Source: Candidatus Acidiferrales bacterium
GTDB taxonomy: Bacteria > Acidobacteriota > Terriglobia > Acidiferrales > UBA7541
DNA length: 64,000 bases
NCBI GenBank assembly: GCA_035934015.1
Contig: DASYYH010000003.1
Span: 62,001 to 126,000, forward strand
Direction: 5' to 3'
Positions 54,116 to 59,658 of the stretch are shown here, one piece after another. The translations under genes were made by a program, and so were the position numbers. Under the pieces are notes generated by a model. The model was not told where the DNA came from and did not search any database. It worked only from the letters and a program-made list of their open reading frames with translations. Position 1 is the stretch's first letter; every line of letters begins with the position of its first letter.

Positions 54116-54190
54116 GCGTTTTACTCGTAGGGGCGCCGCTTGCCTGTCCTGAAGAATGAAGGGCTGCGCCCGCGCGACTCCCCGAGTCGC
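54116..54190. repeat. 75-bp dispersed repeat, family B
   Basis: Starts GCGTTTTACTCGTAGGGGCG and includes TTGCCTGTCCTGAAGAATGA and GGGCTGCGCCCGCGCGA. The copy at 59330-59404 is nearly identical, apart from one base near the start and the small terminal palindrome (CTCCCCGAG here, TGCCCCGCA there). It shares the GTAGGGGCG opening with family A. Confidence 0.8.
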
Positions 54191-54233
54191 GTTTCCTTTG
54201 CCGCGCCCGCCCGGCCATCCGATGATTCTGTAG

Positions 54234-56553: not shown

Positions 56554-57081
56554 TCACAGAAGTGCTTTCAGCTTCAGTTCGATTGCATCCGTGTATTCGA
56601 ACCCGACGATCTTGTCGCGAAGGATTCCTTGTCGGTCGTAGAGCATCGTTGTTGGTAATCCCTCGATGCCTCCGAATTCCCGAACCAGGTCACCCGTTGC
56701 CACGGCCAGCGGATAACGGGCTCCGATTCGGCTCGCAAACTTCAGCGGGTCTTCCGTGTCTTTCATCATGGCGGATTTGAATCCGATGACCACAAATCCG
56801 CGAGCGCCATACAGATCAACCAGCTTCTGATAACCCGGCATCTCTTTCTCGCACGGTTGGCACCACGTCGCCCAAAAGTCGATGAGCACGACTTTCCCGC
56901 GCAGCTCAGACGAGGAAATCTTGTGCCCGTGCAAGTCTGCCACCGTAAAATCGGGGAGCCGTGAGCCAATCTCCCCCGCCGCGATGACGGTTTTTTTCGA
57001 CTGAGGCGGACTCGCAGGACTCCTACTGTATCCCGCGAGTCCTCCGGCAAGAATCAGCAGCACTGCAACTTTGCTTGTCAT
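56554..57081 (-). CDS. TlpA-type thioredoxin-like protein
   Basis: 175 residues with an N-terminal helix (VAVLLILAGGLAGY) and the thioredoxin fold: DFTVADLHGHKISSSELRGK, active site FWATWCQPCEKEM, and the cis-Pro region GIEGLPTTMLYDRQG. Here both active-site cysteines are ordinary TGC. It would reduce or isomerise disulfides outside the membrane. Its ATG immediately follows the stop of the HMA-protein gene (TAG ATG), so the two are translationally coupled. A reductase for that protein's UxxU/CxxC site is an obvious candidate role. Confidence 0.9.
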   Translation of the reverse strand: MTSKVAVLLILAGGLAGYSRSPASPPQSKKTVIAAGEIGSRLPDFTVADLHGHKISSSELRGKVVLIDFWATWCQPCEKEMPGYQKLVDLYGARGFVVIGFKSAMMKDTEDPLKFASRIGARYPLAVATGDLVREFGGIEGLPTTMLYDRQGILRDKIVGFEYTDAIELKLKALL

Positions 57082-57609
57082 CTATTCCTTCTTCTGCACT
57101 TCGAGAATCAGAACCTTGAACGGAACCGACGTATCCAATTTTTTCTTCTTGCCCGCGGGTTTTTTGTACAACTGCCCGCGAACGGTCACGGTCGTCCCAG
57201 TGCCCGCGAGGCCCTGAAGCCCATTGGACAGTTCATTCGGTGCAAGCTCAAACATCCGGTTCGGCTCGACTTGCAACGCAAAATTGCCCGCCGCATCCTT
57301 CACGATTTTTCCCTGTGCGGTCATATCCATTTCCGCGACAGTCACGCCGCTGTCATACGTCACCTTCAGAAGCTGAGCCGGATCAATCTGCCCATCCTCT
57401 TTCGGCGTCACATCGGCCGTTCCGTTCAACAAGCTGACCTCCACGCTTTGAACGCCAGACTGGCGTCCGAGGGATTGTTTCACCCCGTAGGCTCAAAAGT
57501 TTCAGGTCATGCCTTCCACGCGCATCTCGATATGCTTGATTTGCGCCTGTGACACCGGCGCAAGCGCGCAGCCGAGAAGCAGCAGTAGCGCGATTCGTTT
57601 GAAATTCAT
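57082..57609 (-). CDS. Exported HMA-domain protein with two in-frame TGA at the metal-binding CxxC: probable double selenoprotein
   Basis: 175 residues if both TGA are read through. The ATG at 57609 has the strong site AAGGAGGAGCC. A signal peptide (residues 4-22, ending VSQA) is followed by an HMA domain: IKHIEMRVEGMT, then TGA (residue 36, 57502-57504), AAC TTT, then TGA (residue 39, 57493-57495), AYGVKQSLGRQSGVQSVEV. HMA domains read GMTCxxCA at this point, so both TGA stand exactly where the metal-binding Cys belong. The frame continues with normal HMA strands, then a second small beta domain (about 95-175; VTVRGQLYKKPAGKKKK). Cys 14 uses TGC, and TGA stops other genes, so codon reassignment is excluded. 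Selenocysteine (UxxU) is the simplest explanation; a pseudogene or base errors are less likely. Confidence 0.8.
57452..57466 (-). promoter_or_regulatory. Candidate bacterial SECIS hairpin
   Basis: The mRNA sequence ACGCCA-GUC-UGGCGU forms a perfect 6-bp stem with a loop starting with G. Its loop begins 32 nt after the second UGA and 41 nt after the first. Bacterial SECIS elements, as I recall the rule, sit inside the coding region with the apical loop about 16-37 nt after the UGA and a G in the first loop positions. The fit is good for the second UGA only. An outer pairing of CUUU-GAGC (around the second UGA) with GUUCAAAG is also possible. Not proven. Confidence 0.5.
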
Positions 57610-57628
57610 GGCTCCTCCTTTCACTCTT

Positions 57629-58600
57629 TCATTTGAAGAAATGCAGTCGAAACTGTCGCGTGACGCCAAAACTGATGTGGCGCCGCACCGGCATAAACGA
57701 CGCTCCCATTGAGTGCGCCGCGTCCCAGTCCATGCCGAACCACACATGCAGTCCGGGCCGCACTCCGACGTAGGTCGTGATTCCAGTCAAAAGCGCGTCG
57801 CCTCCGCTGCCGTTTTGCGTCACGCCCGCGATGCGGTCGTCCTGCGAATGCAGCCACGTCACGACGGAGCCGATGAACCACTCACGCGCGCCATCCTTCG
57901 ATTCATACGGCCGGTACGACAGCCAAAATCGTGATTCAACATCATCGCCAATGCGCGTCGCTTGCGTTCCCTGCGAGCGCACAAAGGCATGAAAATCCTC
58001 ATCGGCAACGAGGCGCTTGTAATGGAATAGTCCGGTATACGTCCAATTTGCCGCCACAAACAAATCCGTCGAGCCTGATCCCGGCTGCAAAGTTGCCGGC
58101 AACAAGCTTCCATTCGCGCTCGAAATATCTGTGCGTCCGGTGGGAAGCTTGGGACCTACCGTCACCGATGCTTGTGTCGTCCCGCGCTCTGAATCCCGGC
58201 GGTAGAAGCGGTACTTGACGAGCACCATCGCATCGCCAAGCCCGGTTCCGCCGACTGTTGGCGTGCCAGCCGTTTGAAAATCGTTCGTGACAATCGGCAC
58301 GACGACAGTCACATCCAAATCTCGATAGAAGCCCCATGTAAAGTTGAAGTCACCTTCGTGCGAGAACGTCGGGCGCGCAGTCGCCGGCACGCTCGCGGTG
58401 TCCGGCATCCCGCGCGTGGTGAAGATCGAGTTGTAGGAAACAAGTCCGCCGCCCGGAAACAGCGGTGGGGCCGTCTCAGGCGCGGGGCCTTGACCGTAAA
58501 CTGGCCCACAAAGCAGCAGGCCCAGCCCGCAGATTCCGCTTACAAAACACAGAAATCGCACACTTTTCCTCCAGCGATGAAAATTTGCTCCCGAAGACAC
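57629..58600 (-). CDS. Outer-membrane beta-barrel-like protein (MetA-pathway/transporter-like)
   Basis: 323 residues, signal peptide ending near GPVYGQ. The mature part consists of alternating hydrophobic strands (FNFTWGFYRDLDVTVVVPIV, GDAMVLVKYRFYRR, TTYVGVRPGLHVWFGMDW) and ends in FRLHFFK with aromatic residues, as in outer-membrane barrels of the 'MetA-pathway of phenol degradation' type (PF13557). That name is historical; members are often found beside metal-handling genes. Its stop is 19 bp before the start of the HMA gene, so the two are cotranscribed. Confidence 0.75.
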   Translation of the reverse strand: MSSGANFHRWRKSVRFLCFVSGICGLGLLLCGPVYGQGPAPETAPPLFPGGGLVSYNSIFTTRGMPDTASVPATARPTFSHEGDFNFTWGFYRDLDVTVVVPIVTNDFQTAGTPTVGGTGLGDAMVLVKYRFYRRDSERGTTQASVTVGPKLPTGRTDISSANGSLLPATLQPGSGSTDLFVAANWTYTGLFHYKRLVADEDFHAFVRSQGTQATRIGDDVESRFWLSYRPYESKDGAREWFIGSVVTWLHSQDDRIAGVTQNGSGGDALLTGITTYVGVRPGLHVWFGMDWDAAHSMGASFMPVRRHISFGVTRQFRLHFFK

Positions 58601-58632: not shown

Positions 58633-58983
58633 CTAGATTCTCAGCGGGCTAAGCGAGAGCGATTGCGCTAAAGGCGGGGAATGATATCGCGCGGCGATGC
58701 CGCCGATCACCGGCTGCCGAACAATAGATGCCGTTGACGCCGGGAATGAGACAGCAGCCACGGACGGTCCCGCGGCGGGCAATGACGACGACAGCACGAA
58801 AGGCGCGTGCATCGCCTCCATGGTCTTGCAGCAATTCTTGCCCTGATGTCCATGCGACGAGCAAGGCATTGATTTGCAGCACTGCATCGCCTGCTCCGGC
58901 GTTGTCATGCCATTGCAGTCAACGGAATACACGGCGAGAGCCGCCGCCATTGCTGTCAGAAGAATTGCCCTGCTAAATCGCAT
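58633..58983 (-). CDS. Small secreted Cys/Met/His-rich protein
   Basis: 116 residues from the ATG at 58983. An in-frame TTG 36 bases upstream is possible; neither start has a strong ribosome-binding site. A signal peptide (AILLTAMAAALAVYSVDC) is followed by CNGMTTPEQAMQCCKSMPCS and SHGHQGKNCCKTMEAMH, with seven Cys and several Met/His in about 40 residues, suggesting thiol/thioether metal binding (copper or mercury). It is the first gene of the operon with the barrel protein, the UxxU protein and the thioredoxin. Confidence 0.7.
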   Translation of the reverse strand: MRFSRAILLTAMAAALAVYSVDCNGMTTPEQAMQCCKSMPCSSHGHQGKNCCKTMEAMHAPFVLSSSLPAAGPSVAAVSFPASTASIVRQPVIGGIAARYHSPPLAQSLSLSPLRI

Positions 58984-59113
58984 CTCTAGCAGCCTAGACC
59001 TGCTCACAAAGAGAGTCAAGCAGGCTTCTCGATGCGTGGGGATCAGTTTGAATTTTCTCGATCGTCACACAAGAAAGGGGCCTCCCAGGTCGACGGTTAG
59101 TCGAGCCTGGGGG

Positions 59114-59329: not shown

Positions 59330-59404
59330 GCGTTTTACTCGTAGGGGCGCTGCTTGCCTGTCCTGAAGAATGAAGGGCTGCGCCCGCGCGATGCCCCGCA
59401 TCGC
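59330..59404. repeat. 75-bp dispersed repeat, family B (second copy)
   Basis: Nearly identical to 54116-54190; see there for the layout. Confidence 0.8.
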
Positions 59405-59428
59405 CTTGCCTTCACGATTTAACGTTAG

Positions 59429-59658
59429 TCATCCCGAAGTCTGACCGCCGCTGGAATTCGTCACCATCCGATTCGACAACTGATCCTGATGATAGTAGAA
59501 CGTCCCCGAGGAGTTGACCTTCGCCACCAGCGCTCCTCCCGCGTAGACGTACTCCGTCGTCGGTGCGCTCGGCGCGGCTCCGTTCTGATACTCGGCAATC
59601 ACCTTCGATCCCGAGAAAATGTACACCGTCGTCGTGCTCCCCGCCAACTCCAAATCTT
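59429..59658 (-). pseudogene. RHS/YD-repeat protein fragment
   Basis: The minus strand encodes STTTVYIFSGSKVIAEYQNG, TEYVYAGGALVAKVNSSGTF and YYHQDQLSNRMVTNSSGG, the core of an RHS repeat with its 'YYHQD.L.....T...G' motif. Both ends are lost: the frame stops soon after GGQTSG and there is no start. The 5' side is interrupted at 59658 by the 610-bp element. RHS proteins are large toxins or surface proteins; this is a remnant. Confidence 0.8.

Follow-up and report, generated by a model that had tools for sequence, protein, structure and literature searches.

A gene from Acidobacteriota for an exported HMA-domain protein, very probably a selenoprotein with selenocysteine at both positions of its metal-binding pair

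The stretch of DNA analysed here (hereafter the window; 64,000 nt of contig DASYYH010000003.1 from Candidatus Acidiferrales bacterium, assembly GCA_035934015.1) carries on its reverse strand a gene which, to judge from sequence, very probably encodes an exported HMA double selenoprotein with selenocysteine (Sec) at both of its internal UGA codons. A double selenoprotein had been proposed in the preliminary description of this DNA, and the proposal is now supported by the Sec machinery of the host genome, by the alternation of TGA and TGC among homologues, by a hairpin after the second UGA and by purifying selection downstream of the two codons.

The coding sequence (57609-57082, minus strand) translates as MNFKRIALLLLLGCALAPVSQAQIKHIEMRVEGMT-U-NF-U-AYGVKQ..., ends in TAG and comprises 175 aa when both TGA are taken as Sec, an assignment that draws on the translation, a Pfam HMA match, the relatives and the signature of selection. 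Its only internal stops are UGA 1 (TGA at 57504-57502) and UGA 2 (TGA at 57495-57493), which, from the frame and the relatives, would supply the first and the second Sec of a UxxU motif in the context EGMT-TGA-NF-TGA-AYGVKQ. Both codons fall exactly on the CxxC positions of the HMA domain, just as had been described: with C in place of U the protein matches Pfam HMA (PF00403) with 42 bits (cut-off 24.8; E 1.2e-10), the CxxC metal pair of this family being replaced by UxxU in the window protein and present in other members of the wider family. A Shine-Dalgarno sequence (AAGGAGGA, 57620-57613, minus strand) with the ATG 3 nt downstream accounts for the strong ribosome-binding site reported earlier. 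Residues 1-23 (57609-57541, minus strand) form a predicted signal peptide, recognised by eye from its charged N-terminus, hydrophobic core and AQA-like end as well as from the alignment, in which no lipobox Cys is conserved among the relatives. TGC serves as Cys codon at other sites of the gene and in the adjoining thioredoxin gene, and since the flanking genes on both sides end in TGA (57631-57629 and 56556-56554), TGA is an ordinary stop in the window; the earlier statements on codon usage thus hold. Mechanical ORF calling breaks the gene into an ORF at 57502-57747 and a GTG-start fragment from 57483, as had been foreseen, and standard gene callers are likely to split such UxxU genes in the same manner.

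The C-terminal domain (residues ~88-175; 57348-57085, minus strand) matched no Pfam family. Structure prediction of the full protein reached a pLDDT of 50 with a shallow alignment and of 31 from the single sequence; in the resulting low-confidence model the strand order of the domain is beta-beta-beta-alpha-beta-beta, and Foldseek searches with this weak model returned mostly OB-fold proteins (top match 1nnx, YgiW, E 0.04), which hints at a resemblance to the OB-fold.

The gene is embedded in an operon with three conserved partners. Its TAG abuts, at 57081, the ATG of an intact TlpA/ResA-like thioredoxin gene (56554..57081, minus strand; active-site motif WCQPC), which was assigned by profile match and relatives and agrees with the coupling claimed in the preliminary description. 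On its other side lies the gene for a beta-barrel-type outer-membrane protein (57629..58600, minus strand; start codon uncertain), for which no Pfam match was obtained in the window and which was recognised by context and distant homologues, two of the barrel homologues in distant members matching Phenol_MetA_deg. Next to it stands the gene for a small exported Cys/His-rich protein (MQCC..MPCSSHGHQGKNCCKTM; 58633..59019, minus strand; start codon uncertain), taken from the ORF list and the relatives. Within the close group the gene order is nearly constant (Cys/His-rich small exported protein, beta-barrel, HMA-UxxU, TlpA), and TlpA and barrel neighbours are present in nearly all close relatives. 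In distant members the barrel is often kept, irrespective of whether they have UxxU, UxxC or CxxC, and genes for NHL-repeat proteins and of MerT and MerR type lie close by in several of them.

A single scan of named genomes yielded 20 full-length relatives with 66-78% identity, all of them from Acidobacteriota and all with TGA at both positions and with no other internal stop; because 20 out of 20 relatives in one collection carry both, the double TGA is not due to chance. Profiles were searched against 396 genomes from the phylum and 399 from the class, a custom profile scan was added and duplicates were removed, which left 39 UxxU, 7 UxxC, 2 CxxU and 28 CxxC distinct acidobacterial loci at the same two alignment columns, the CxxC set containing some plain HMA proteins. 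The match extends into the C-terminal domain in 38 UxxU, 6 UxxC, 2 CxxU and 13 CxxC members. This alternation of Sec and Cys at exactly the two HMA positions, for which an alignment of homologues had been recommended, is, as read from the codons, the classic selenocysteine signature. A tree of 58 proteins requires 7 changes of the Sec/Cys label, compared with a mean of 18.6 after shuffling, and some of the starred sister pairs carry different labels. Four genomes from the same genus as the window (G439, G573, G586, G607) gave no family match at E 1e-6, which indicates a recent gain or loss of the gene within the genus.

The host assembly (3.37 Mb, 98.6% complete) encodes the complete set of components for which a search had been recommended, i.e. 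tRNA-Sec (selC; 65.9 bits, anticodon tca), SelA (566.9 bits), SelB (381.8 bits) and SelD (357.7 bits). The selD gene (L073, G000:C8:23885-24829) itself has one in-frame TGA (AAG-U-AAKLSPG), followed by a hairpin with a GUCU loop that conforms to the published bSECIS model; it is a selenoprotein gene too and constitutes an internal positive control. FdhA gave no match over the cut-off in the genome of the window, and the UxxU gene may therefore help to explain why soil acidobacteria retain the costly Sec machinery. SelB scored over the cut-off in 19 of the 20 genomes with close relatives, the exception being one close MAG (G396), and was likewise not found over the cut-off in G110, a 95% complete genome with a UxxU gene; assembly gaps or mis-binning could be responsible for both absences. 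In the phylum panel, SelB, strictly counted, is present in 10 of 13 genomes with a Sec gene vs 10 of 21 others (p 0.09), so that the association within this panel alone is weak on the strict count, and in 12 of 13 (p 0.009) once two partial SelB fragments, which stem from fragmented MAGs, are included. In the class panel, SelB occurs in G210 (UxxC), whereas none over the cut-off was found in G049, a CxxC genome of the same family (f2).

Two hairpins lie downstream of UGA 2; the preliminary description had advised the use of a bacterial SECIS predictor. Hairpin 2 (GGACGCC-AGUCU-GGCGUUC; 57468-57450, minus strand) has its loop at 57461-57457, 31 nt after UGA 2, and is of bSECIS type by its pairing, its synonymous constraint and the bSECIS model, which specifies an early G in the loop, a stem of at least 4 bp, a distance of 16-37 nt from the UGA and an MFE of -7.5 or lower (PMC13188914). 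With respect to UGA 2, a hairpin of this form is present in 37 of the 39 UxxU members, the window included, vs only 1 of the 28 CxxC members. Hairpin 2 alone folds with -10.3 kcal/mol (z -3.7 vs shuffles), while for the 63-nt mRNA segment as a unit the advantage over shuffles is not significant (z -1.2). Across the 39 UxxU members 264 of 273 possible pairs are formed, compared with 178 +/- 6.7 when codons are synonymously redrawn, a test that ignores sequence kinship, by which shuffle-type statistics are inflated. All seven pairs are intact in 32 of these 39 and in none of the CxxC members. One pair shows compensation from G-C to C-G in six rows and another varies between G-U, A-U and G-C, the four inner pairs being invariant and hence silent on covariation. 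Among the 21 closest sequences there is no synonymous variation at codons +13, +14 and +16 to +18 after UGA 1, and codon +15, which is located in the loop, displays only a TCT/GCT (Ser/Ala) change; dS amounts to 0.077 over the hairpin vs 1.35 downstream, an approximately 17-fold reduction of synonymous change.

Hairpin 1 (GGGGU...UCCC; 57486-57469, minus strand) is situated directly 5' of hairpin 2; its pairing is kept among the UxxU members, with a register that varies between subgroups. For UGA 1 the bSECIS model finds no hairpin in the window, where the loop of hairpin 2 is 40 nt away, and 8 of the 39 members pass. Hairpin 1 was also considered as a SECIS of its own for UGA 1 and rejected, given that its loop in the group of the window, AAACAA, lacks the early G. 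In three of the seven UxxC members another hairpin, which lies 17 nt from UGA 1 and has the loop CGUGC, passes the model. The CxxU branch (GYLCGNUVFN; L060:1765-1839, L077:1212-1286) has no hairpin conforming to the bSECIS model, so that its SECIS may be of another type or a different explanation may apply. No Rfam match was found here. We suggest that SelB and tRNA-Sec would insert Sec at both UGA codons, directed by the hairpin 31 nt after UGA 2. Since this single SECIS loop lies 40 nt from UGA 1 and thus outside the range of 16-37 nt, it is tentatively proposed that the folding of hairpin 1 shortens the spacer, which would bring the loop effectively to ~22 nt from UGA 1, and that this hairpin melts once the ribosome reaches UGA 2. 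It is equally speculative that both hairpins together constitute an element dedicated to the decoding of a double UGA, by which one SECIS would serve two Sec at a distance of three codons; the proteins would then be a new subfamily of exported metallochaperones with a diselenolate site.

Other explanations of the two TGA codons fare poorly. Were only one genome known, two stops inside 12 nt would suggest decay, and nonsense mutations or miscalls might be suspected; yet both TGA recur across many assemblies, at 39 distinct loci, the operon is intact, dN/dS downstream of the TGAs is about 0.09 among the close sequences (n=21) and none of these 21 shows any other damage to the frame, the kind of breakage in related genes that the preliminary description had singled out as adverse. 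On these comparative data a pseudogene or sequencing error is ruled out for practical purposes, its probability being negligible. A changed genetic code or a suppressor tRNA that reads TGA as Trp or Cys is hardly more credible. It would fit a frame that stays open once TGA is taken as a sense codon, but both neighbouring genes end in TGA, the codon alternates with Cys codons at the metal site, tRNA-Sec(tca), SelA, SelB and SelD are present, and the form of hairpin 2 with all pairs is confined to TGA members and seen in no CxxC member; general recoding is likewise, for practical purposes, ruled out by comparison. Alternatively, UGA 1 could be a regulatory stop that terminates a leader peptide, the GTG-start fragment being the product and the hairpins controlling re-initiation, as an in-frame GTG and the hairpins after the second TGA might suggest. 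Such a fragment, however, would be devoid of the metal motif and the first HMA strand (it reaches only 20.3 bits against Pfam HMA, under the cut-off of 24.8), the residues preceding the TGAs hardly vary (dN 0.007) and the CxxC homologues are continuous proteins. The comparative data therefore lead us to reject the leader-peptide reading as very improbable.

For the double selenoprotein, some handling of soft metals is the main role that we favour, albeit with reserve. After export, the two selenols would act as metal ligands of the HMA domain in place of CxxC, the UxxU pair would be the site for a soft, thiophilic metal, for example Hg(II) or Cu(I), and the TlpA-type thioredoxin would keep this pair reduced in the oxidising periplasm; these roles are proposed because the protein appears to be an exported HMA with a pair of selenols, is accompanied by a dedicated TlpA and has relatives with mer-type neighbours. 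Selenolates have a very high affinity for Hg(II), and in rhizobia TlpA-type proteins reduce periplasmic copper chaperones. The barrel and the Cys/His-rich protein may, considering the constant gene order, participate in the same metal-handling pathway, and the OB-like C-terminal domain would, more loosely, probably dock partners. Both the identity of the metal and the role of TlpA are suggested by gene neighbours, and the mer-type genes next to distant relatives hint at mercury. The UxxU pair could instead be a redox catalyst (a diselenide/selenol oxidoreductase) that works with TlpA and carries no metal, in which case the protein would still be a double selenoprotein. The TlpA gene abuts the HMA-UxxU gene, an arrangement from which few close relatives lack the TlpA, and most known selenoproteins are regarded as redox proteins (PMC13188914). 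The fold, however, is that of HMA and not of thioredoxin, and distant members adjoin MerT and MerR genes rather than thioredoxins alone; we consider a redox catalyst possible but rather unlikely.

Sec-containing forms of MerP, MerT and MerT/CopZ have been documented (PMC2398784, PMC9312934, PMC13188914, NCBIfam), so that the MerP and MerT precedents mentioned in the preliminary description are in print; Sec MerP, for example, was reported from marine metagenomes, its motif not being stated (PMC2398784). No report of an acidobacterial HMA selenoprotein was found in the open-access literature. NF041115 (UxxU_metal_bind) likewise represents an HMA-type domain with CxxC replaced by UxxU, and its 'metal-binding (seleno)protein' corresponds to the 'putative mercuric reductase' with 2 Sec of PMC13188914 and PMC9312934; this model, however, is a 74-position domain on which the window protein scores 37.9 (cut-off 95), whereas the latter has 175 aa, a signal peptide, the C-terminal OB-like domain and a barrel/TlpA operon. 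With NF045683 (MerT_CopZ_Se, the MerT/CopZ fusion-like heavy metal transport selenoprotein) it shares the trait of a heavy-metal selenoprotein with a CopZ-like HMA part, but the name of this family denotes a fusion to a MerT-like part, and the window protein has no MerT-like membrane domain and scores 30.3 (cut-off 375). MerP (TIGR02052), the periplasmic mercury-binding protein, is also an exported single HMA domain, and mer-type genes are neighbours of distant relatives of the window protein; MerP, however, has CxxC and no C-terminal domain, and the window protein scores 33.1 vs 92.55. CopZ-type copper chaperones possess the same HMA fold and GMTCxxC context (47.1 bits for NF047957, 40.7 for NF033795; cut-offs 85 and 91), but are cytosolic, about 65 aa long and Cys-based, unlike the exported UxxU protein of 175 aa. 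The window protein thus differs from all four, with scores far under their cut-offs and another architecture, localisation and operon. G099 has a short HMA gene resembling CopZ (L079:1052-1126, minus strand), with one Sec (GMTUGACA) and a hairpin conforming to the bSECIS model; it adjoins MerT- and MerR-type genes.

The prokaryotic catalogue comprises 119 selenoprotein families or subfamilies, a small subset of which has two or three Sec (PMC13188914); to this catalogue the present gene would add a subfamily of exported two-domain HMA selenoproteins with an invariant double Sec. It also raises the question, with regard to decoding, of how one hairpin could serve two UGA codons. Moreover, UxxU, UxxC, CxxU and CxxC form a natural series at one metal site, spread over related genomes and even found within a single genome, which allows one to ask what selenium gains in metal binding. 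Indeed, in G377 a UxxC copy and a CxxC copy adjoin each other in one cluster (L076, G377:C87:44000-60000), a natural pair of Sec/Cys paralogues. This cluster resembles a metal-resistance locus and contains, in addition to the two copies, MerR and MerT/P-type genes and a reductase similar to MerA/glutathione reductase.

In the window, the whole selenoprotein operon lies within 5.2 kb flanked by an 83-nt direct repeat (54116-54198 and 59330-59412, 92% identical), which may be a dispersed repeat or the mark of an insertion. An RHS-repeat-like fragment at 59429-59653 (minus strand) is probably a remnant.
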